Part shown: in pieces, positions 3,112 to 47,330 of the stretch
How positions within the stretch are numbered: position 1 is the stretch's first letter
Layout: every line of letters starts with the position of its first letter
NCBI GenBank assembly: GCA_020832345.1
Contig: JAFIEY010000126.1
Coordinates: 1 to 47,330, forward strand
Direction of reading: 5' to 3'
DNA from: Cryomorphaceae bacterium
GTDB lineage: Bacteria; Bacteroidota; Bacteroidia; Flavobacteriales; Schleiferiaceae
DNA: 47,330 nt
Notes under the pieces: generated by a model
Told to the model about the DNA's origin: nothing
Seen by the model: the letters and a program-made list of their open reading frames with translations, nothing else
The model's database searches: none
Made by a program: the position numbers and the translations under genes

Positions 3112-5382
3112 TTGAAGTATGTAATTTACATATTGGCTTTAACCATTTGGCTTTCTTTGATTGCCAATAAATCTATGGCTCAGAATCTTCCAGGAAGTGG
3201 GAATGCCACAACGGGTTTTGGCCCGGGCTATGTAGAGATAGAGGACTTTCCCCGGGTACAGTTTCCTATTACCTTTGCCGCTTGGGTTCGACTTGAACCT
3301 TTTGGCCAGCAGCCCATTACACAGCGATTTCCGATTTTTTCCACTGGTCAGGGTACAGCCACCACCTATCGTGGGATTTCTTTTCAATTGACCCGACAGG
3401 AACACGGCTCCTATATTGAAGTGCAATGGGGTAATGGATTGTGCGCAGGCCCCAATTGCATAAAAACAATTCGACGTTTTTTTAATACTATTCTGGTCAA
3501 TTCCGATCGAATGTTTCATGTGGCTGTCGTTCTGCACAACACCAACCAGGCGACTATTTATGTGAATGGAAATTTTTCGTTTTCGACACCTTCTGAGCAA
3601 GGAAATCCTGCGATTACAAACCCTGCCTATCCACCCCTAAATGAAACAAATTATGCGCGCATCGGGGCTCATCAAGCCGGTGCAACGGACTTTTTTGACG
3701 GCTCGATTGATGAAATAACGGTTTGGAATACCGCCAGGACGCACCATCAAATCAGGGAGTATATGTGCAAAAAAGTGCCGCCTACCGCGAATAATTTACT
3801 GGCTTACTATAAACTGGATGAGCTGAACGCAACGGACACCGTCGTTGATAGTTCCCCAAATAATTTTTTTGGTGTACCCGCCGGAACACAATTGCTCACC
3901 AAAGAATACTCGGGAGCGCCCATTGGCGATGAAGCAGACTATAACGGTCCGGGTGCACTCGGGGTGGTGCATGTGAATAGTTTGGGAGATACCGTTGAAG
4001 TTTCCAACCCATCTGTAGAGCAAGTAACAACTGTTCATGCATATACCGTTTTTTCTGATCCCAATCACAAAAATGGAATCGGTGCAGATTCTTCCTGCAT
4101 GCGCGACCGATACTACGGCGTCTTTTTGGCACACGGCATTCGGTATCTACCCGGAACAATAATTTATCCCCATAACTCAAATTACCAAATTATGGATGTG
4201 AGCATACGGGGAAATACGCCACCAGATTATTTTGGTGTATTTACTCGTGGACGAAATAATTTCATGAACTGGCAATTGGAAACCGGGCCTAATTTACAAG
4301 GAAATGAAATTTTGGATACTGTTCTTATCTGTCGGGAGTTTTACCCCAGATTGGAAGCACCTAAATATGATCCGGATTTACCCGATACTGTTTTTACATG
4401 TTCTTTTCCACTGCTTCTATCAGCAGCAACCCTAGATGTTGGTACACTTAGTTGGGATGACAGTCTTAATACCATGGGCAGGGAATTATCAGTGTTAAAA
4501 CCCGGTAATTATACGATTACCGCTTCATCTTTACCCTGTAGTATTGCATCCATATCCCATACGGTTACGGTATTAGGCGAAACCATTGAGGCTGATACTA
4601 CTTTTAATATTTGTGAGGGAGACTCTGTTGTTTTTTTGGATACAATTTTTAAAGATGAAGGGCAGTTTATGGTTACGAGATCCAGTTCATTTTGCGATAC
4701 GATATGGGAGGTTAATATTGAGGTAAGTAGCCAAACGATACATAGAGATACCGTCGTTTCTTTATGTCCCGGAGAAACTTTTGAGGGCGGGGGAAATGTT
4801 TTTTCTGAAGCCGGAAATTACACTTTCATAGAACCTGACCCTGACGGATGTTTCTTTGAGTATAATTTAGAAATCATTGGGCTTTCGGATTCGGATATTT
4901 ACATTGAATCCGAAAGTGAAAAACTGTGCAATGGTGAGTCTTTGATTTTATCTGTGCGAAACCACGATGGATACCCAATTTTATGGAGTACTGGGGAAAC
5001 CACACAAATGATTGCCATCTTTAGTGGGGGTGAATATGCTGTTCAAGTGGGAGGTCAGTGTGGTTTTCGGCACGATACCATATCCATCCTGCAGGGTGGT
5101 TGTCGTCCCAGACTATTTATTCCAAATGCTTTTGCTCCAACAGGAACGGGAAATAACGAGCGATTTAAGGTGAAAGGCGACGGGATTCAGTCGTATGAAA
5201 TTTCAATTCTCGACCGATGGGGAAATGTAATTTACCACTCCACGGATTTGAGTGAGGCTTGGGACGGAACCTACAAAGGAAAAATGGTGCCTTCTGCTGT
5301 TTACGTTTACTTAATCGTCGTTACAGGATTTGAATCTTCGGAAGTAATTCGAGAACAGGGAACACTTTATTTACTTCGGTAA
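3112..5382 (+). CDS. Secreted LamG-domain protein with T9SS type B sorting domain (paralogue B)
   Basis: A 756-residue tandem paralogue of the gene at 388, with the same order: signal peptide (ends SMAQ), LamG domain, PKD/Ig-like middle, CHU_C sorting domain ending GTLYLLR. Most blocks align almost without gaps, for example NLPGSGNATT, GYVEIEDFPRV and RLFIPNAFAPTGTGNNERF. The start is TTG at 3112; no in-frame ATG gives a complete signal peptide. Its 3' end overlaps the convergent BrkB-family gene by 16 bp. Divergence is clearest around 3420-3620 and 4120-4180. It is likely an exported surface adhesin or coat protein; the ligand is unknown. Confidence 0.85.
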   Translation: MKYVIYILALTIWLSLIANKSMAQNLPGSGNATTGFGPGYVEIEDFPRVQFPITFAAWVRLEPFGQQPITQRFPIFSTGQGTATTYRGISFQLTRQEHGSYIEVQWGNGLCAGPNCIKTIRRFFNTILVNSDRMFHVAVVLHNTNQATIYVNGNFSFSTPSEQGNPAITNPAYPPLNETNYARIGAHQAGATDFFDGSIDEITVWNTARTHHQIREYMCKKVPPTANNLLAYYKLDELNATDTVVDSSPNNFFGVPAGTQLLTKEYSGAPIGDEADYNGPGALGVVHVNSLGDTVEVSNPSVEQVTTVHAYTVFSDPNHKNGIGADSSCMRDRYYGVFLAHGIRYLPGTIIYPHNSNYQIMDVSIRGNTPPDYFGVFTRGRNNFMNWQLETGPNLQGNEILDTVLICREFYPRLEAPKYDPDLPDTVFTCSFPLLLSAATLDVGTLSWDDSLNTMGRELSVLKPGNYTITASSLPCSIASISHTVTVLGETIEADTTFNICEGDSVVFLDTIFKDEGQFMVTRSSSFCDTIWEVNIEVSSQTIHRDTVVSLCPGETFEGGGNVFSEAGNYTFIEPDPDGCFFEYNLEIIGLSDSDIYIESESEKLCNGESLILSVRNHDGYPILWSTGETTQMIAIFSGGEYAVQVGGQCGFRHDTISILQGGCRPRLFIPNAFAPTGTGNNERFKVKGDGIQSYEISILDRWGNVIYHSTDLSEAWDGTYKGKMVPSAVYVYLIVVTGFESSEVIREQGTLYLLR

Positions 5383-6368
5383 GGGGCTTCTTTTTTAGCC
5401 CTGGCTTCACGTTTTCGTTTGCTGCGAATATCGATGGCGAGGTTTTCTTTTCGCAATTTTGCTTGTGCGATACTGGCGTTAAATTCAAACCCAATAATCA
5501 AAACAATGCTGTTGAGGTAAATCCAAAGCAAAATAACCAATAAGGTCCCAATCGATCCGTAGAGTTTATTGTATTGGCTGAAGTTATCAACGTAATAACT
5601 GAAACCTGCGGATGCTAGAATGATCAAAACGGTGGCGATAATTGATCCCGGTGAAAAGAACTTCCAAAGTTCCCGGTTGGCCGGACCAAAATAGTATAAA
5701 ATGGCTATGCTTATATATACAATGAAAAGCATCATTACCCAACGACCAATTTGAATAACGCCCCGAATGGCTTCTGGGATAAAGTTTTGATCGACAAGCC
5801 ACTGTGAAAAACTTTCGGTAAAAATGATCATGGTGACCCCTACCAGAATTAGCAAAGCCAAAATTAGTGTAATGAAAATAGCCACCATTTCTTGTCGCCA
5901 AAAACTTCGGTCACCCAAATTGTGAACCGTCGTATTAAAATTGGTCATTAGGGCGTTAAATCCATTTGCCCCAAAAATTAAACCCATAAAAAAACCAAAA
6001 CTCAAAAGTCCGCCTCGACGATTGGTTATGATATCCTCAATGGTGCTTTCTGCTGCCTCATAAGAATTTGGCGGCATAATATCTTGTAGGAGCTCGAATA
6101 ATTCTTCCTGAAACCCTTCTATTGGAACGTAGGGAATTAAACTGAAAATGAAAATTAATGATGGAAACAACGCCAGAAAAAAGCTGAATGCAATTGATGC
6201 TGCACGCGAAGTAACGTTTCCCTCAATAACGCCGTACCAAAAGAATCGCCCAACATCGTAAAGACTTTGTCCCTGAAAAAACGGGATGGTAATGTATTTA
6301 CTCAATCGGATAAATCGAAGTATCCAATATTTACTTTGTCGGTATTTCTTTTTAAAATATGCAGTCAC
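5367..6368 (-). CDS. YihY/virulence factor BrkB family membrane protein
   Basis: A 333-residue inner-membrane protein of the BrkB/YihY family (Pfam Virul_fac_BrkB), whose biochemical role is still uncertain. Visible family features are the N-terminal SRAASIAFSFFLALFPSLIF segment, about six hydrophobic helices, and the late GSIGTLLVILLWIYLNSIVL signature followed by a basic cytoplasmic tail (RSKRKREARAKK). The start is GTG at 6366-6368; its G is also the last base of the TAG stop of nadC (TAGTG), which implies translational coupling. The 3' end overlaps the convergent LamG gene by 16 bp. Length is normal for the family. Confidence 0.88.
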   Translation of the reverse strand: MTAYFKKKYRQSKYWILRFIRLSKYITIPFFQGQSLYDVGRFFWYGVIEGNVTSRAASIAFSFFLALFPSLIFIFSLIPYVPIEGFQEELFELLQDIMPPNSYEAAESTIEDIITNRRGGLLSFGFFMGLIFGANGFNALMTNFNTTVHNLGDRSFWRQEMVAIFITLILALLILVGVTMIIFTESFSQWLVDQNFIPEAIRGVIQIGRWVMMLFIVYISIAILYYFGPANRELWKFFSPGSIIATVLIILASAGFSYYVDNFSQYNKLYGSIGTLLVILLWIYLNSIVLIIGFEFNASIAQAKLRKENLAIDIRSKRKREARAKKEAPYRSK

Positions 6369-39961: not shown

Positions 39962-40090
39962 AAGAAAAATTTAGGGCAAAGATAAACCAGTTGACCAAAC
40001 GCCCCAGCGAAGGTTTGAGAACAAAGAATGGTCAAAAATCACCCTTTTTTTAATCAACAAAGCCAGCCCATCTAAAAGCGAATTTTCATT

Positions 40091-40300
40091 TGGGCGCCTG
40101 CCACCCCCATTCCAACCCCTTGCACCACCGCAGCTCATTTGGATGGGGGGTGTCACCGGGCTGTCCGCTATAGCCACCTTCCCGCGGCCCACATCGGCGG
40201 CGCGTACGGGGGCTGGCTCCTACCGTCGCAGCCTCCGCCGCTTGCGCCGCTGTACGGCCTCGTGTTCGGTGGGCTGCCGCTTCCATCCCTGGCGCGTTGG
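40091..40300 (+). repeat. GC-rich structured sequence, probable dispersed repeat or RNA element
   Basis: About 210 bases that are strikingly GC-rich between AT-rich flanks. Pairings include CACCCCCATTCC (40102-40113) with GGATGGGGGGTG (40141-40152), and GGCT with AGCC around 40159-40175. No reading frame here looks like a protein. The segments GGGCTGTCCGCTATA (40158-40172) and GCTGCCGCTTCCATCCCT (40273-40290) resemble, from memory, the ends of a repeat common in marine Bacteroidota genomes. The function is unknown. Confidence 0.45.
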
Positions 40301-40311
40301 TGTCGTATGCA

Positions 40312-40341
40312 TGTAGGGAAAACGCATGCGTTGCACCTACA
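40312..40341 (+). repeat. 30-bp palindromic repeat
   Basis: TGTAGG at one end and CCTACA at the other surround a perfect ACGCATGCGT centre; 24 of 30 positions are palindromic. It resembles the short TGTAGGGGCAACGCATGCGT-type palindromes dispersed in many Bacteroidota and cyanobacterial genomes (recalled, not checked). The rest of the gap to 40472 holds no gene. Confidence 0.5.
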
Positions 40342-40472
40342 ATCGTCATCATCATCTAAAAGCATAAAAACCACCACCATTTATACCCATCTCACCCAAA
40401 AAAGCCCTAACGTATCTGGAATATTGGTTCACCATGGCACTATTCAGATATTTACATTATATTTGACCTTCA

Positions 40473-40540
40473 ATAACCGCAATACCAGCTGCACAACATA
40501 TCCTGATTTGGGTGTATATAGATAGTTTTTTTGCGGTTAT
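40473..40540 (+). other. Spaced inverted repeat upstream of the defence cassette
   Basis: ATAACCGCAA (40473-40482) and TTGCGGTTAT (40531-40540) are perfect 10-bp inverted repeats 48 bp apart, with a T7 run just before the second arm. It could be the terminator of a lost upstream gene, or one boundary of the AT-rich cassette. Confidence 0.4.
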
Positions 40541-40610
40541 AAACGATTATGTGGGATTATAAAAGACAATCGTACAACAAAACCAAGACGGAGAATAAAG
40601 TAAAAGGAAG

Positions 40611-40618
40611 TAAATTTG
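40611..40618 (+). promoter_or_regulatory. -7 box of the AAA ATPase/DUF4435 cassette
   Basis: TAAATTTG fits TAnnTTTG and lies 20 bp before the start codon at 40638, giving a very short leader. A clear TTTG -33 element is not visible. Confidence 0.35.
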
Positions 40619-40637
40619 CAAATAACAAACTATAGAA

Positions 40638-41993
40638 ATGAGTAAAACCAAAATAAAATCATTTGAAATCATTGGGCTTTTTGGGACTGATGATATAAAT
40701 ATTCCTTTTAAAGACCCTGTTAAAATTCTTATCGGTGAAAATGGACTAGGTAAAAATCAGGTATTGAATTTATTCTATTTCACACTAACTAAGAATTTTT
40801 TTAGACTTAGCGAATATAATTTCAAGAGCCTTACTATAACATTTTCAAACGACAAAAAAATTGAAATATCAAAAAGGCAAGTTGATGAACTAGTAGACAA
40901 AATTTATAAACATCCTATAGTAAAAGAATTGATAAGTGAGATAGGATATTCTCAATTTGAAATGCTTCGAAATAAATTTCTGAAAGACAGGAAGAATTGG
41001 CATAGACTTGAAGACAGTTATTTGATGTCAAACACTAGAATTGGAAGAAAATTTCCAATCCATCGGGTCTTTAGAGTGTTTGAAGAATTGGAAATAATTG
41101 AAGACAAACAGTCTAATGTTTATTTAGATAAATGTAAAAAGGATATTTCAAAGGAACTCAAGGGGGTAGAGATTTTGTATTTCCCAACATATAGAAGGGT
41201 TGAAGAAGATTTATACAATCTAGGCTATGATGAAGACGAATTAAGAATTGACCAAGACAATAATCTCATTCAATTTGGAATGGGTGATGTTAAAAGAAGA
41301 TTTAACTATATACAGAACACAATTGATAAATTACTTAAAGAAGGACTTGCTCAATTTACAAAAGACATTTTAAATGTTGTAATTGATGATTCTGAACCTT
41401 CAGAAAATATTTTAGATAAGATTAATGAAAGTGACATAGAAATAATTTTATCAAGAGTTGGCAACTTATTACCTGACAATCAAAAAGATGCTGTAAAAAG
41501 TATTGTTGCCAACAAACAGTTGAAAAATCCACTTTCTGCTTATTTGTTACAAAAGCTAATCGATATATACGAAAAACAAAAAGAATTAGATAATTCTGTT
41601 AAAATATTCAGAGATGCCTGTAACAAGTATTTAATTAATAAAAGTGTTTTTTATGATGAAAGTGCTATTGAAATTTACATAAAATCAACAAGGACAAATG
41701 ATAAAATTGATTTGAAACACTTGTCTTCCGGTGAAAAGCAGATTGTTTCAATGCTATCAAATGTTTACTTATCTGAAACAGAAAAAAGATTTTTAATTCT
41801 GTTTGATGAGCCCGAACTTTCTTTAAGTATGATGTGGCAAAAACAGCTTTTACCCGATATATTAAATTCTAATAAGTGTGATTTTCTGTTAGCCGTAACA
41901 CATTCTCCTTTCATTTTTGACAATGAATTAGACTCCTTTGCTGTCGGAATGAATGAATACGTTAAACCTGCAAAAGTGAATGTTAAGCAATGA
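40638..41993 (+). CDS. AAA/ABC-type ATPase, putative AriA of a PARIS anti-phage system
   Basis: A 451-residue SMC/ABC-like ATPase. The Walker A region is GENGLGKNQ near residue 33, with Asn where Ser or Thr is usual. The ABC signature LSSGEKQ, Walker B LILFDEPELSLS and a His switch in VTHSPFIF follow in order near the C terminus. Between them is a long helical insert. It overlaps the next gene by 4 bp (ATGA), and that gene carries DUF4435/Toprim features; this pair is the architecture of PARIS, in which AriA sequesters the AriB nuclease until a phage anti-restriction protein is sensed. The gene is much more AT-rich than the rest of the window, suggesting transfer. Other AAA-DUF4435 pairs remain possible. 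Confidence 0.68.
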   Translation: MSKTKIKSFEIIGLFGTDDINIPFKDPVKILIGENGLGKNQVLNLFYFTLTKNFFRLSEYNFKSLTITFSNDKKIEISKRQVDELVDKIYKHPIVKELISEIGYSQFEMLRNKFLKDRKNWHRLEDSYLMSNTRIGRKFPIHRVFRVFEELEIIEDKQSNVYLDKCKKDISKELKGVEILYFPTYRRVEEDLYNLGYDEDELRIDQDNNLIQFGMGDVKRRFNYIQNTIDKLLKEGLAQFTKDILNVVIDDSEPSENILDKINESDIEIILSRVGNLLPDNQKDAVKSIVANKQLKNPLSAYLLQKLIDIYEKQKELDNSVKIFRDACNKYLINKSVFYDESAIEIYIKSTRTNDKIDLKHLSSGEKQIVSMLSNVYLSETEKRFLILFDEPELSLSMMWQKQLLPDILNSNKCDFLLAVTHSPFIFDNELDSFAVGMNEYVKPAKVNVKQ

Positions 41994-42787
41994 CGTATTT
42001 AGAGCAATTAAGAAAAAGTAAGAGCAAGCCTCAAGTGGCATATCAAGAATTTGCCCTTTCAACGAGAAAGAATCCAGAGCATTTATTTTGCTTTTTTGAA
42101 GGGAAAGATAATGCTTACTATGTATCAAGGATAAAAAGATTTACAGAAAGTTATTATCCTGTGAAGTGAGGTGGAAAACAATCAGTACTTGATGTTTACT
42201 CATTAATTACAGGCAAAGAAGAGTATAAAAAATATAAGTTGGGGTTCTTTATTGATAGAGATTTTAATTCTCCAGTTGGTGACAAAAATCCTCCAATTTT
42301 TGAAACTCCTTGTTATTCAGTGGAAAACTTGTATGTTTCGATAAGTGTTTTTAAAGAAATTTTGACTAACGAATTTCATCTATCAGAAGTTTCAGATACA
42401 AATTTTAAAAAATTATCATCTTTATATGAGCAAAGGCAAAAGGAATTTCACAATTCAGTTTTGCTTTTTAACAGTTGGTATTCCTGCTTAATAGAGAAAC
42501 GAGAAAATGAAAATCGCAAAACAGGGGTAACACTTGATGATAAGTTGCCCAATAACTTTATTGACATTAGCCTAGACGAAGTTAAATCATCATATGACTT
42601 TCAAAAGATAAAAGAAACCTTCCCAAATGCTATCGAAATTGACTACACAGAAGTTGAGAAAAAAATGGAATTCTTTCAAGACAAAGAGATGCACAAAGTT
42701 TTCCGTGGAAAATACGAATTAGAATTTTTAATTAAAATGATTCGTGAAATTCTTAAAGACTCAAGTGGATATTTCGGAGCATACTGA
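41990..42787 (+). pseudogene. DUF4435 (Toprim-like) protein, putative AriB, interrupted by an in-frame TGA
   Basis: ATG at 41990 overlaps the ATPase stop. The frame runs 59 codons to TGA (42167-42169), then stays open in the same frame to 42787, 265 codons plus stop. Both parts look like one family: LFCFFEGKDNAYYV (Glu37) before the stop and GFFIDRDFNS (Asp89, Asp91) after it are the expected Toprim-type acidic residues. The residue at the TGA precedes GGK, where I expect Cys in this family, so a single TGT/TGC to TGA change would explain it. The last six residues (GYFGAY) are encoded by the inserted IS21 end, so the original C terminus is also lost. Reinitiation or readthrough cannot be excluded. 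Confidence 0.72.
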
Positions 42788-43061
42788 CCCCCATACGCCG
42801 CAACACTGATTCTGTATGATTATTCTTTGTTTTGGTTTTCGGCCTGACAATACGTCCCATGCTGACCCCTCTCAGGGCTTCACATTGTTGTTCCTTTATC
42901 TTATTGGGGAGGGCGCGCGGCACGCCGGCACCAAATACGGAGCATGCTGACCCCTCTGATTTGAGGAGCACGGCACGCCGACCCTAAATACGGAGCATGT
43001 TGACCCCCTAAAAAATTGTTTGGTACTTTATGGGATTTAATTAACCCATAAAACTAACGTA

Positions 43062-44663
43062 ATGGCTGGAAAACCAAAACAAATGAATCAAATAAAACAA
43101 CTTTTGCAATTGCACTTGCAAGGAAAGGGCAAAAAAACGATAGCCCGCATTACTGGTATGAGTAAGAACACGGTAAAATCTTATTTGCAGAAGCTTGATG
43201 CGCTTATGTTAAAAGATAAATCTGTGACCATAAAAAGCTTACTTAAGCTAGAAGATCCCGAATTAGAAGGGGTTTTTCATGCAGGCAATCCTGCTTATAA
43301 ACAGGAAGATGAGCGTTATACAAAATTTACCAAGCTTGCTGAGGGTTACATTAAAGAGCTAGAGCATGTTGGTGTAACCAAGCGTTTACTTTGGGAAGAG
43401 TATAAACAAGAGTACCCTAAAGGCTATCAATACACTCAGTTCTGCTTTCATCTTCGCCAATACTTAAAGGCAAAGAAGCCCTCTGCGGTACTTCATCATA
43501 AGCCTGGCGATGCGCTATTTATTGATTTTGCCGGCAAAAAACTATCGTATGTTGATAGAAAAACAGGAGAGATTATTGAGTGTCCTGTTTTTGTTGCATG
43601 CTTACCGTACTCTGATTATGGGTTTGCAATTGCTGTTAGTTCTCAGAAAGTAAGTGAGTTTATTTATGCGCTAACCAAGTGCATACATTTTATGGGCGGT
43701 TCTCCGCATTCAATAGTACCTGACAACCTTAAGTCCGCAGTTATTCGCGCAAATAGGTATGAGCCTATACTAAACGATGCACTTTCTGATCTTGCAAATT
43801 ACTACGACACAGCGGTAGTTCCAGCACGCGTCAGAAAGCCAAAAGATAAGGCGCTTGTTGAAAATCAAGTTAAGCTCATTTACACACGTGTATATGCTCG
43901 CATCAGAAACCAAACGTTTTTTGATTTAAGGTCTCTGAATCATGAAATTGCTAAACGAGTAAAGGCTCATAACCAAACACGTATGCAAAGACATCCGTAC
44001 TGTCGAGAGGAAAAGTTTTTATCTGATGAGCAGGCTCATCTTAAGCCTTTACCTAAAGATAAATTTAGTTTAAAGTTTACAAAAGTGCTTACTGTGGCTC
44101 ATAACAACCACATCTATTTGAGTAAAGATAATATCCACTACAGTGTGCCTTATGAGTTTACAGGTCAAAAAGTTAAGGTTGTATATAATCGAGAAATGGT
44201 TCGTATTTATTATGAAAACAAACAAGTAGCTGCGCATATTAGAGGTTATTCAGATCGAGGATATGCCACAGTAAAAGATCACTTATGTTCTGCTCATCAG
44301 GAATATTTAAGTCGCAGTCCAACGTACTATATACAGCGAGCAGCAAAGAAGTCTTCAGTCTTGGCGCAACTCATTGAAGCGCTTTTCAATACAAACCGAT
44401 ATCCAGAACAACTCTATCGTTCATGTGATGGATTATTTTCTTTAATGGAAAAAAACGACAAAAAGATTTTTGAGCAAGCTTGTAAAAAAGCCCTTAAACT
44501 CAATAATCCTAGTTACCCTTTTGTGAATAACATTTTGGAAAACAAGACATATAGACAAGAAGAACCTGAAGACCAGAGACCCCTGCCCAAACACGACAAC
44601 ATTCGTGGAAAGGCTTATTATCAACAAAAGTTAAACTTTAAATCAACTGACAATCATGAATGA
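43062..44663 (+). CDS. istA: IS21-family transposase IstA
   Basis: A 533-residue DDE recombinase. The N-terminal HTH (GKGKKTIARITGMSKNTVKS) is followed by the integrase core with Asp in ALFIDFAGKKL, Asp in VPDNLKSAV and Glu in DKALVENQV. The C-terminal beta-barrel region (KDNIHYSVPYEFTGQKVKVV) matches IstA proteins. Length is full. It acts with IstB in transposition. It overlaps istB by 8 bp, indicating coupled translation. The coding sequence appears intact, so the element may still be active. Confidence 0.95.
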   Translation: MAGKPKQMNQIKQLLQLHLQGKGKKTIARITGMSKNTVKSYLQKLDALMLKDKSVTIKSLLKLEDPELEGVFHAGNPAYKQEDERYTKFTKLAEGYIKELEHVGVTKRLLWEEYKQEYPKGYQYTQFCFHLRQYLKAKKPSAVLHHKPGDALFIDFAGKKLSYVDRKTGEIIECPVFVACLPYSDYGFAIAVSSQKVSEFIYALTKCIHFMGGSPHSIVPDNLKSAVIRANRYEPILNDALSDLANYYDTAVVPARVRKPKDKALVENQVKLIYTRVYARIRNQTFFDLRSLNHEIAKRVKAHNQTRMQRHPYCREEKFLSDEQAHLKPLPKDKFSLKFTKVLTVAHNNHIYLSKDNIHYSVPYEFTGQKVKVVYNREMVRIYYENKQVAAHIRGYSDRGYATVKDHLCSAHQEYLSRSPTYYIQRAAKKSSVLAQLIEALFNTNRYPEQLYRSCDGLFSLMEKNDKKIFEQACKKALKLNNPSYPFVNNILENKTYRQEEPEDQRPLPKHDNIRGKAYYQQKLNFKSTDNHE

Positions 44664-45375
44664 CATTGAGAGCAGATTAACATCGTTACGGCTTCACGGT
44701 ATGCACCGTGCTTGGGAGTCGTTAAAACAAAGTCGGCAACTCCAAAACCTTGAAGCAGCAGAAGTCCTTGACCTGCTGCTTCAATCGGAGCAAGATGAAC
44801 GGCAAGACAGGCGCTATAAACGTCTTTATCGCAACGCAAAGTTCCGATATAATGCCAACTTAGAAGAGGTGAAAATAGGAGCATCTCGCGGACTTGAAAA
44901 AAGCCTAGTTGCTAGGTTAACTACCGGTAACTACTTGGAAAAAGGAGAGTCTATTTTGATTACCGGAGCTACAGGCTGTGGAAAAAGCTTTTTTGCTTCA
45001 TCTTTGGGTAATCAAGCTTGTATTCAAGGTCATAGCGTAGCCTACTATAATGCACAAAAGCTAATGTTAAGAGCAAAGCTTTCACGTGCAGAAGGCACTT
45101 CAATAAAGTTTTTTGAAAAAATATCAAAAACAGAATTATTGATTATAGATGACTTCGGGCTAACTTCATTAGACGCGATACAACGAATGGATCTAATGGA
45201 AATAATTGAAGATCGACATGCTAGAAAATCAACAATCATCTCAAGTCAATTACCAGTAGCAAGCTGGTATAATGTCATCGGAGAAGACACAATTGCTGAT
45301 GCCATTTTAGATCGATTAGTGAATACATCTCACCATATCGAAATAAAAGGAGAAAGTATGAGAAAAAAAATGTAA
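44656..45375 (+). CDS. istB: IS21-family helper ATPase IstB
   Basis: A 239-residue AAA+ protein of the DnaC/IstB type that helps IstA select targets. The N-terminal helical domain (MHRAWESLKQSRQ) is followed by Walker A GATGCGKSFFA, Walker B LLIIDDFGL and sensor-like TIISSQLPVASWY. The C-terminal Arg region DAILDRLVNTSHHIEIKGES is present. Length is normal and no lesion is seen. It ends 92 bp before the right end of the IS. Confidence 0.95.
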   Translation: MNDIESRLTSLRLHGMHRAWESLKQSRQLQNLEAAEVLDLLLQSEQDERQDRRYKRLYRNAKFRYNANLEEVKIGASRGLEKSLVARLTTGNYLEKGESILITGATGCGKSFFASSLGNQACIQGHSVAYYNAQKLMLRAKLSRAEGTSIKFFEKISKTELLIIDDFGLTSLDAIQRMDLMEIIEDRHARKSTIISSQLPVASWYNVIGEDTIADAILDRLVNTSHHIEIKGESMRKKM

Positions 45376-45466
45376 CTTTGTCATGCTATTTACGTTCTTA
45401 AAAACTTACAATTTTTTAGGGGGGTCAATATGACCGTATTGGGGGGTCAATATCACCGAAATATCC

Positions 45467-46442
45467 AGCAATATGTGGGCGGAAAATCGTCGGATAAATT
45501 CCAACGGACTTAGACGCATGGTCTTGCGCTTGCCCTTTGCACGGTAATCTTTCCAGCTAAACTTCACCCAACGATCATCCACCTCACGAATACGGTGATT
45601 GCTGATGGCAATTTTCTGTGCCCCGTTACAATGTTTATACTTGAATGTACTGAATTAAAGCGAGCTGTTTGATTAAACATTGTAACGGGGTGGGTGTATC
45701 GCGCCAGATACTCCACCACTGTATCGGGCGATTGCACGGGCGATTTGGCATACACCGCCCACTTGGTTTTGTAAAGACGGTCGCGGAGCGATGGCCAATG
45801 CGTCCCCTCGGGTACTTGCACCTCTCCACGCAAAATCATCCGATTGAGATGGTCGAGGAAATACCCGCGAAAAAGCGGCATCATCACGTTATAGGGAAAC
45901 AAATAATCGCCAAAGCCCTTTTTGAGTTTATGCCATTGATTATTGGCATCTGCGCCGCCGCCACTGACAATGCAATGTACGTGGGGGTGAAACTGAAGCT
46001 GCTGCCCCCATGTATGCAGCACGGTTGTAATAGCCGGCGTTGCCCCCAAGTACTTCGGATCGCGACTCAGGGTCAACAAGCAATGCGCGGACGCATCAAA
46101 CAGCAAATCAAAAAACAACTTCCGGTAGCGCCAGGCCATCGGTCGGAGTTCTGCCGGCAGGGTAAACACCACGTGAAAATACCGGGTAGGCAGCAGTTCA
46201 CGCAATCGCTCGTCCATCCATTCCTGCACACGGGCGTACCCACAATGCGGACAGTGGCGGTTGCGGCAAGCGTGATACTGCAAGTGGATTTTCTCACAAG
46301 CACTGTTTTGGCACTTGTAGGTATGGTATCCCAGAGCTGCTGTATGGCATCGCTCAATCTTGCTCAGCACCTTATGCGCACCAAGCGGTATATGCTGGCG
46401 CCAATCCGGAACATGCGCCAGCACGTCCTTAAACGAGGCCAC
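45467..46442 (-). pseudogene. IS91-family transposase, frame-shifted and 3'-truncated
   Basis: Starts at GTG 46442 and is open for 292 codons to 45564. It has the zinc finger (CQNSACEKIHLQYHACRNRH, CPHCG), the HUH motif FHPHVHCIVSGGG (near residue 152) and the catalytic-Tyr region VVEYLARYTH. It then runs into a 70-bp palindromic insertion. Beyond that, the family continuation KIAISNHRI ... WVKFSWKDYRAKGKRK ... LEFIRRFSAHIL can be read only in another frame, down to 45467, where the IS21 end cuts it off. The normal protein is about 380 residues, so this copy is inactive. It lies 3 bp after the tyrosine recombinase gene, a common partner in Bacteroidota. Confidence 0.88.
45621..45690 (+). repeat. 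70-bp palindromic insertion inside the IS91 transposase
   Basis: CCCCGTTACAATGTTTA (45621-45637) and its perfect complement TAAACATTGTAACGGGG (45674-45690) enclose a 36-nt spacer. The transposase family sequence is continuous on either side (YTH before, IAISNH after), so this is a later insertion. Only a 2-bp TG duplication, if any, flanks it. Confidence 0.7.
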
Positions 46443-46445
46443 TCC

Positions 46446-47318
46446 CTAAAGCATTTGTTTGTTTTTGGGAATATTAGCAATCTGATTATCCGGCACATCA
46501 ATCGTATCCAAAGGATTTACCAAGGCGTTGCGTTTGCGCGACTGCAGGTGCAAATACACCATCGTCGTTTCGATTTTGCTGTGGCCTAGTAATTCTTTAA
46601 TCGTATGAATATCAGCCCCACCATCTAATAAGTGCGTGGCAAAAGAATGGCGAAGTGTATGTACTTTTTTGGGTTTATGCTGTAGGCCAGCACGTTGATA
46701 AACCATACGAACAGCGTGTTGGATGCTGCGTTCGTGCATCGGTTTTCCCGGTTCTTGTCCTTCAAACAAATAGACTTGTGGTTTGACTTTACAATCGCGG
46801 TAATATACCCTCAACGTCTCAAGACACCTTTGAGAAAGCAAGGTATAGCGATCACGAGCGCCTTTACCACTTTCAACTTTAATGCGGTTTTGCTCCCCTT
46901 CAATGTGAATCATTTTTAGATGTTGAAGTTCACTCAGCCGCAATCCGCTGCTATAAAACAGCTCCAAAATAGCCTTTTCCTTGCTGCTTTGGCAAGCATT
47001 TAAAAGCATTTGAACCTCTTCGCGCGTGAGCACAGCAGGTAGTTTAAACGGACGCTTGGGGTAGATTTTACTGGGCGTTTCATATGGTTTGCCCAACACA
47101 TGGCGAAAGAAGTACGCCAAACTTTGCGCCACCATGTGGCATTTGCTGCGGGAGGCTTGTTTTTCGTTGATTAAGTAATGGAGATAATCAACCACCAAAT
47201 CTTCCGTCCAATCCATCGGATCCATGTCCGGATAGAACTCAATCATAAACCGAACTTCCCTTGTGTACGAAACGATGGAGCGCTTTGCCAAATGCGATAC
47301 GACCATCAGTTTCTCCAT
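46446..47318 (-). CDS. Tyrosine recombinase/integrase associated with the IS91-type element
   Basis: About 290 residues of a XerC/D-like site-specific recombinase. The N-terminal SAM-like core-binding domain is followed by the catalytic domain with all expected residues: Arg in SGLRLSEL, Lys in VESGKGARDRY, HTLRHSFATHLL (His and Arg), LLGHSKIETTMVYLH (His and the nucleophile Tyr). I chose the ATG at 47318; a TTG at 47324 is also in frame, and as no stop is seen before the window edge the true start could be slightly further upstream. It pairs with the IS91-type transposase gene directly downstream. It appears intact. Confidence 0.9.
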   Translation of the reverse strand: MEKLMVVSHLAKRSIVSYTREVRFMIEFYPDMDPMDWTEDLVVDYLHYLINEKQASRSKCHMVAQSLAYFFRHVLGKPYETPSKIYPKRPFKLPAVLTREEVQMLLNACQSSKEKAILELFYSSGLRLSELQHLKMIHIEGEQNRIKVESGKGARDRYTLLSQRCLETLRVYYRDCKVKPQVYLFEGQEPGKPMHERSIQHAVRMVYQRAGLQHKPKKVHTLRHSFATHLLDGGADIHTIKELLGHSKIETTMVYLHLQSRKRNALVNPLDTIDVPDNQIANIPKNKQML

Positions 47319-47330
47319 TTTCAAAAGGGC

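Follow-up and report, generated by a model that had tools for sequence, protein, structure and literature searches.

Does the AT-rich gene pair near the end of a Bacteroidota contig encode a working PARIS anti-phage system, and how did it come to lie there? The stretch that we analysed (the window) comprises 47,330 nucleotides (nt) of contig JAFIEY010000126.1 of Cryomorphaceae bacterium (GCA_020832345.1), a contig of a draft assembly of 260 contigs with a completeness rating of 100%. A first-pass annotation, made from the letters of the DNA, had described positions 40473–42766 as a transferred PARIS unit, with an ABC-type ATPase gene followed by a DUF4435/Toprim-like gene. We find that the pair belongs, with near certainty, to the PARIS family (AriA plus AriB) and that it carries three lesions. 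The likely history, in our view, is that a PARIS operon arrived in this genome as an integron-type cassette, carrying its own promoter, and was inactivated afterwards. The apparent bank of cassettes in the same genome is more interesting than the gene pair itself, which adds to a known kind.

A PARIS gene pair with three lesions

The first gene, ariA (40638–41993, forward strand), encodes an AAA_15/ABC-type ATPase of 451 amino acids. Its top PADLOC model is AriA (1.4e-28), its Pfam AAA_15 score is 38.8 bits (cut-off 32.1), and its sequence matches the solved AriA 8UX9 (9.6e-12). The next PADLOC model, PtuA of Septu, was rejected as a better family on its E-value of 2.1e-13. The gene overlaps ariB by ATGA at 41990–41993, just as the first reading had it. 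The ariB remnant (DUF4435/Toprim; 41990–42765, forward strand) holds codons 1–258 with one internal stop. Reading through that TGA gives matches to PADLOC AriB (1.9e-47) and to DUF4435 (1.6e-53, 182.4 bits, against a cut-off of 27); the part downstream of the stop matches both by itself (3.7e-36 for AriB; 7.1e-41 and 140.9 bits for DUF4435). The open reading frame (ORF) after the stop (42239–42787, forward strand, 182 amino acids) does not contain the acidic motif FFEGKD, and its last part is translated from an IS21 insertion sequence (IS). The profile checks that the annotation had proposed thus came out in its favour for both genes. According to the available part of Rousset 2022, PARIS comprises an AAA_15 or AAA_21 ATPase adjoining a DUF4435 protein, with score limits of 32 (AAA_15) and 27 (DUF4435) (PMC9122126); the window pair exceeds these limits. 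Since even the post-stop fragment of AriB clears the published limit, scores alone could yield a complete-PARIS call at this locus, which illustrates the need for reading-frame checks in defence calls.

The closest relative of the window PARIS is carried by VEQH01000030.1 of the Flavobacteriales metagenome-assembled genome ZLKRG09 (locus L002), with protein identities of 93.6% for AriA and 94.6% for AriB. Here and below, L-numbers denote loci with PARIS relatives or genome stretches, and C-numbers denote contigs of the window's genome. The fold comparison used the intact AriB of L002 rather than the window protein. The model (mean pLDDT 92.4) aligns with solved AriB by VIA-align 2 at Z 13.6 (8V46_D) and 13.4 (8UX9_A) over 249–260 residues; the structures that come next are OLD Toprim domains with Z of at most 7.6. 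Neither 8V46 nor 8UX9 was among the best 50 Foldseek matches of this model, none of which had an E-value below 0.001. Identity to solved AriB is about 12%, and neither phmmer nor a profile found a match for AriB among sequences of the PDB. EG..D and D.D are motifs that we take to be the Toprim residues of AriB. For E26 of Escherichia AriB, the available part of PMC12409363 documents the role of the residue.

Three lesions set the window copy apart. The ariB frame ends after 59 codons at an in-frame TGA (42167–42169, forward strand), which occupies codon 60, a conserved cysteine position in the alignment of relatives. The stop splits FFEGKD, before it, from DRDF, after it, so that the Toprim motifs do not lie on one polypeptide. 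Cysteine was found at codon 60 in 33 of 33 relatives of the first set and in 35 of 37 once four more loci were added. In AriA, the Walker A region GENGLGKN (40734–40757, forward strand) ends in Asn where relatives have Thr: the window reads GKN, which departs from GK[ST], and all 34 distinct loci readable at this point read GKT (30/30 in one comparison, 33/33 in the other), the other three of the 37 being severed by contig ends. T40 differs only in the window row of a 19-row alignment. Lastly, homology to AriB stops at 42765, and 258 codons are followed by IS21-derived letters, compared with 309 amino acids in L002. About 51 C-terminal residues are gone, among them the conserved YAETP..L..YL stretch and model helices 281–287 and 296–307. 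A search of the window's genome for the missing C-terminal coding (query 1–154) found no match better than E 0.04. There is no further stop or frameshift in ariA or in ariB codons 1–258.

The window PARIS is very probably dead. In Escherichia, AriB is bound by a hexamer of AriA and set free by an anti-restriction protein, and AriB dimers cut tRNA-Lys and some other tRNAs (PMC11455837); the same points of mechanism appear in the available parts of PMC12409363 and PMC9122126. By homology, AriA of the intact L002 copy would act as the ATPase sensor: it would restrain AriB, a Toprim nuclease, until it senses an anti-restriction protein from a phage, and the freed AriB would cut host tRNAs, whereupon translation would stop. 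In the window copy, the stop shortens AriB to 59 residues, the C-terminal part of the AriB fold is missing from an IS21-linked junction onwards, and AriA carries a substitution in Walker A, so neither AriB release nor tRNA cleavage would be expected. The first reading thus stands as regards family, both for the DUF4435/Toprim gene and for PARIS, and falls as regards a single open frame and a working system.

The inactivation appears to be recent, because no other stop or frameshift has accumulated and because the ratio of nonsynonymous (dN) to synonymous (dS) divergence from L002 is low: 0.019 for AriA (dS about 1.9, dN 0.036) and 0.071 for AriB codons 35–258 (dS 0.158, dN 0.011). Damaged AriB may not be rare among PARIS relatives, since at locus L029 (Anabaena sp. 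CRKS33, 5001–5408) the best AriB match ends at residue 136 and also has a stop within the alignment.

Might the lesions be sequencing or assembly errors in a PARIS that works? Both genes are otherwise open and strongly constrained, a single assembly is the source of both the stop and the IS junction, and the junction could be misjoined, as further IS21 copies are found at contig ends (C163 and C229). However, this account requires errors at all three places, two substitutions and one truncation; the coding sequence of the AriB C-terminus has no match better than E 0.04 in the genome, and among the IS21 flanks compared by eye no pairing restores a target duplication. We regard this explanation as improbable. 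It is more improbable still that the broken operon is kept for a reduced role, for instance with AriA serving by itself as a sensor or a decoy. AriA is indeed of full length and highly conserved, but its Walker A change occurs in none of the 34 readable relatives, and we know of no precedent.

Replacement of a conserved cysteine by UGA is a classic sign of a selenoprotein, and because the TGA sits at a conserved cysteine, selenocysteine recoding was tested. No SelB in the window's genome exceeded the cut-off (best 188.8 versus 242.25 bits, on a 401-amino-acid frame read as EF-Tu), and no tRNA-Sec exceeded the gathering score (best 43.4 versus 47); ARAGORN identified the two best tRNA-Sec candidates as tRNA-Ser and tRNA-Leu. 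With both parts of the machinery below cut-off in a genome rated as complete, selenocysteine was rejected, and the TGA is taken as a true stop. Read-through by this or any other recoding would have the cysteine of most relatives in its favour, yet two remote relatives (27% identity) have Ala and Ser at codon 60, which shows that the cysteine is not universal and also weakens the case for a damaged conserved site. Moreover, ariA itself ends in TGA, AriB would be truncated regardless, and AriA carries its own lesion. Read-through is therefore the least credible of the alternatives, with hardly any weight in our assessment.

attC-like sites and the origin of the gene pair

The L002 PARIS lies between two attC-like hairpins. 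One scores 124.7 bits and is among the eight attC-like sites from which our covariance model, R1, was built; the other, a non-training site, scores 48 bits (E 8.4e-11). At 15 of the 27 stem pairs, the eight sites differ on both sides while the pairing is preserved. The sites terminate in AAACG, with TTRR next in most cases, and are located between same-strand genes, and the 3' hairpin of the L002 PARIS has L and R boxes ending G/TTRRR. On the bottom strand, the PARIS site of L002 folds much more stably than shuffled sequences (z −4.53); folding of the other site is less clear (z −2.0, equalled by 7 of 200 shuffles). We also find that the L002 cassette start, TTATGTGGG, is complementary to its own R'' box, CCCCACATAAC, over 10 nt, as circularisation of a cassette through attC would predict. 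Such complementarity reaches 9–10 nt in four of ten cassettes (one from L002, nine from the window's genome), whereas the 90 mismatched pairings reach 7 nt at most, and 10 of 100000 permutations equalled the observed sum.

The window holds what we interpret as the remnant of the same cassette (40547–42765, forward strand), with the 5' end TTATGTGGG retained and the 3' end and its attC lost. Homology to L002 covers 40545–42765 (87% identity). The predicted start is TTATGTGGGATTAT at 40547, and the first 22 nt are identical to L002. GC content is 0.294 in 40547–42765 and 0.429 in the remaining window; none of 452 equal-sized sliding windows is lower, and those at or below 0.31 start at 40301–40701. 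The AT-rich composition pointed out earlier is thus real. So is the gene pair's own −7 box, TAAATTTG (40611–40618, forward strand), which lies inside the cassette about 20 nt upstream of ariA, in a block common to the window and L002; the rest of the leader varies. TAnnTTTG is the −7 consensus of Bacteroidota, and the motif is not enriched across the window (42 observed versus 49 expected).

A 10-bp inverted repeat had been cited as flanking the unit. Both of its arms (40473–40482 and 40531–40540, within 40473–40540, without strand) lie upstream of the cassette, so that it flanks nothing and marks no boundary. Perfect inverted repeats of at least 10 bp arose in 19 of 500 shuffles of 40397–40637, and 40455–40556 folds at shuffle level (z −0.19). 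As the region matches no attC model and folds at chance, the repeat was rejected as an attC site or boundary. The claim of a transferred unit nevertheless seems right, on the different ground of the attC-bracketed cassette of L002.

The window PARIS is probably derived from an integron-type cassette. Because R1 found no attC-like site in the window, where the 3' end of the cassette is lost, the case for this origin depends on L002 and on the start that both copies have in common. Besides the absence of a site, several observations weigh against it. In the window, AAACG and the cassette start are separated by one additional base (A). An intron of L002 ends exactly at its cassette start, so the end of homology at that point is no independent sign of a boundary. 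Complementarity between start and R'' is just 0–4 nt in six of the ten cassettes. The training sites of R1 had been identified by their similarity to those of L002, and site counts therefore lean towards that family. Finally, no integron integrase (TIGR02249, cut-off 265 bits) was recognised in the genome of the window or of L002, with attI not searched; none of 14 control genomes passed the cut-off either. Since the assembly is a draft, the integrase may be missing or unrecognised. Among L003–L034, no attC-like site was found at PARIS itself (E up to 0.01); in L018 a site lies about 2.4 kb upstream of ariA (E 0.001), and L034 shows a weak match (E 0.13).

The L002 introns bear on the same question. 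Two group II intron copies (L002 3222–3566 and 6061–7952, one with a run of N) lie directly after AACG of both attC-like sites, in the same direction as the cassettes and genes, whereas group IIC-attC introns have the opposite orientation to the cassette in the available part of PMC7923331. This orientation, together with the unrecognised integrase and the lack of a site in the window, would suit a plain horizontally acquired operon whose neighbouring hairpins belong to some other repeat family, terminator-like or REP-like, and not to integron attC. But that alternative leaves the AAACG/TTRR ends, the placement between same-strand genes and the match of several cassette starts to their own R'' boxes without an explanation, and we consider it unlikely, although it is the strongest of the rival accounts. 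A phage or plasmid origin of PARIS was rejected: intact AriB matched none of 50,697 phage records and only six plasmid records (24–26% identity), and no AriB match was confirmed on viral contigs.

The window copy and L002 share a cassette start and −7 box block but differ in state, the latter being intact, with an AriB of 309 amino acids and introns at both flanking sites. They also differ unevenly along the operon. The synonymous difference between them is 0.693 in AriA (near saturation) and 0.142 in AriB codons 35–258. Across 607 locus pairs, the AriB-minus-AriA synonymous difference has a mean of −0.009 (standard deviation 0.075); the pair of window and L002 is the extreme at −0.551, followed by −0.275. 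The jump in divergence falls near ariB codon 34, just upstream of FFEGKD (window 41990–42765 versus L002 5001–5776). Because synonymous divergence drops so sharply at this point, we read the pattern, from sequence comparison, as a probable exchange of the effector part (AriB) between two PARIS lineages by recombination.

An empty site was sought in four same-genus relatives (G001–G004), and none was obtained: the glycosyltransferase gene is kept, but the sequence retrieved beyond it does not align to the window, and at that point one of the four stretches ends together with its contig. Our guess is that the window copy was inserted beside the glycosyltransferase gene at a non-classical attG site. 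Between that gene and PARIS lies a GC-rich repeat of about 300 nt (window 40090–40420). All 40 scored candidates of it (59 candidates in all) match in the window's genome, and it has no match in Rfam at gathering scores.

A possible cassette bank and the elements beside PARIS

R1 detects 29 attC-like sites, spread over 22 contigs, in the window's genome (E up to 0.1), a lower bound, as 150 of 871 first-look candidates were scored. Nine bracketed cassettes were examined, a set without the bracketed pair on C216, and restriction or phage-defence families are present in six of them: a McrBC-like cassette on C110; AbiLi/AbiLii on C115; NsnA-NsnB-NsnC, with three genes, on C191, where the left site is weak (22.5 bits); an AccI-type methylase with its endonuclease and, separately, PDC-M11A on C97; and, on C137, a PD-Lambda-2 A/B pair, in which B covers 118 of 402 profile positions, next to a toxin-like gene of the Gp49 type. 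The TPR-protein cassette of C97 and the cassettes of C50 and C6 have no defence match. No enrichment is claimed, because the contigs were chosen for holding sites and there is no background rate. Outside the brackets, C110 carries HEC-01, AbiE, ParDE and an NgoBV-type endonuclease with methylase; TmtA occurs on C8, and type I restriction subunits occur on C242, C50 and C91. The other attC contigs have no tested defence gene, and ORFs of C138 read as sugar-epimerase-like.

We are inclined, somewhat beyond an even chance, to see in this genome an integron-type bank with at least 29 attC-like sites, loaded with two-gene and even three-gene restriction and phage-defence operons that include PARIS. 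Its systems would be exchanged and broken cassette by cassette, as with the swapped AriB, and IS91-like elements and group II introns would feed on its attC sites.

Contigs C110, C115, C191, C97, C8, C242, C50, C137, C6 and C91, all with attC sites, are among loci L089–L098 and L120–L123. Many of the sites in this genome are close to restriction genes, to AbiL, AbiE, HEC-01, Nsn, TmtA or PD-Lambda-2 genes, or to genes of toxin-antitoxin pairs. The first attC of C110 is 97% like that of the L002 PARIS. A join of the window contig to C110, which starts with another repeat, was considered and is not claimed. A 235-nt direct repeat, 89–92% alike, lies between the defence operons of C110 (L089 6560–6794, 10104–10338 and 13264–13498); the attC model does not match it.

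Downstream of the cassette remnant lies an IS21-family element (42766–45467, forward strand), with istA at 43062–44663, istB at 44656–45375 and ends TGGATATTTCGG and CCGAAATATCCA. IstA and IstB match their profiles (NF033546, 237.2 bits; NF038214, 237.5 bits), and the terminal repeats match each other. The left end is found again on C163 and the right end on C229. No target duplication was seen, and no pairing of flanks by eye restored one, in a comparison that did not include C130 and C97, where the copies are partial and shorter. As an IS91-like element moreover begins directly at 45468, the junction presumably arose by deletion or recombination between IS copies, or as an assembly join of two copies.

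The IS91-like element (45468–47330, reverse strand) extends to the contig end and encodes a Y2 transposase (45564–46442) and a tyrosine recombinase (46446–47324). It is also present on C110, C50, C39, C115, C6, C218 and C97. On several contigs its end sits exactly at AACAG of attC-like sites, as if the element targeted the R'' box.

Comparison with known systems

The PARIS of Escherichia P4 satellites (Rousset 2022, PMC9122126; structures 8UX9 and 8V46) resembles the window and L002 pairs in gene order, with an ATPase followed by a DUF4435/Toprim partner, in the fold of AriB, as modelled for L002, and in the sequence of AriA. The unit described here seems to ride as an attC-type cassette and not to occupy a P4 hotspot. 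The window copy differs further in its stop, its Walker A substitution and its lack of an AriB C-terminus.

Among the papers examined, we found none that links PARIS with integrons. The primary papers on integron defence (Darracq 2025 and its companion), two PARIS structure papers of 2024 and some further papers that contain both words, such as PMC12707154, lay outside the search, so the evidence for novelty is weak, and priority may lie with them. PARIS and integron cassettes are treated in separate places in the available part of PMC12593503; "Paris" is the city in the parts of PMC13064858 and PMC10924106 that were available, and the main text of PMC11389934, as far as available, is without PARIS.

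The sites described here resemble CALINs (clusters of attC sites without an integron integrase; PMC9024848) in that no integrase is recognised beside them. In the available part of the same IntegronFinder 2.0 survey, Bacteroidetes proper have one complete integron, in Salinibacter ruber, and earlier had just In0; in contrast, the present sites were found within a single draft genome. Sedentary chromosomal integrons of Vibrio carry anti-phage systems as attC cassettes (Darracq 2025, as told in the available part of PMC12409362). The cassettes of our genome are likewise bracketed by attC-like sites, although the Vibrio integrons have an integrase. Systems of more than two genes are said, in the available part of PMC12409362, to be absent from Vibrio integron defence cassettes. 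A three-gene Nsn cassette, if true, would exceed this reported size, and a PARIS carried as an attC-bracketed Bacteroidota cassette, if true, would mean that integron defence banks are not confined to Vibrio and mobile integrons.

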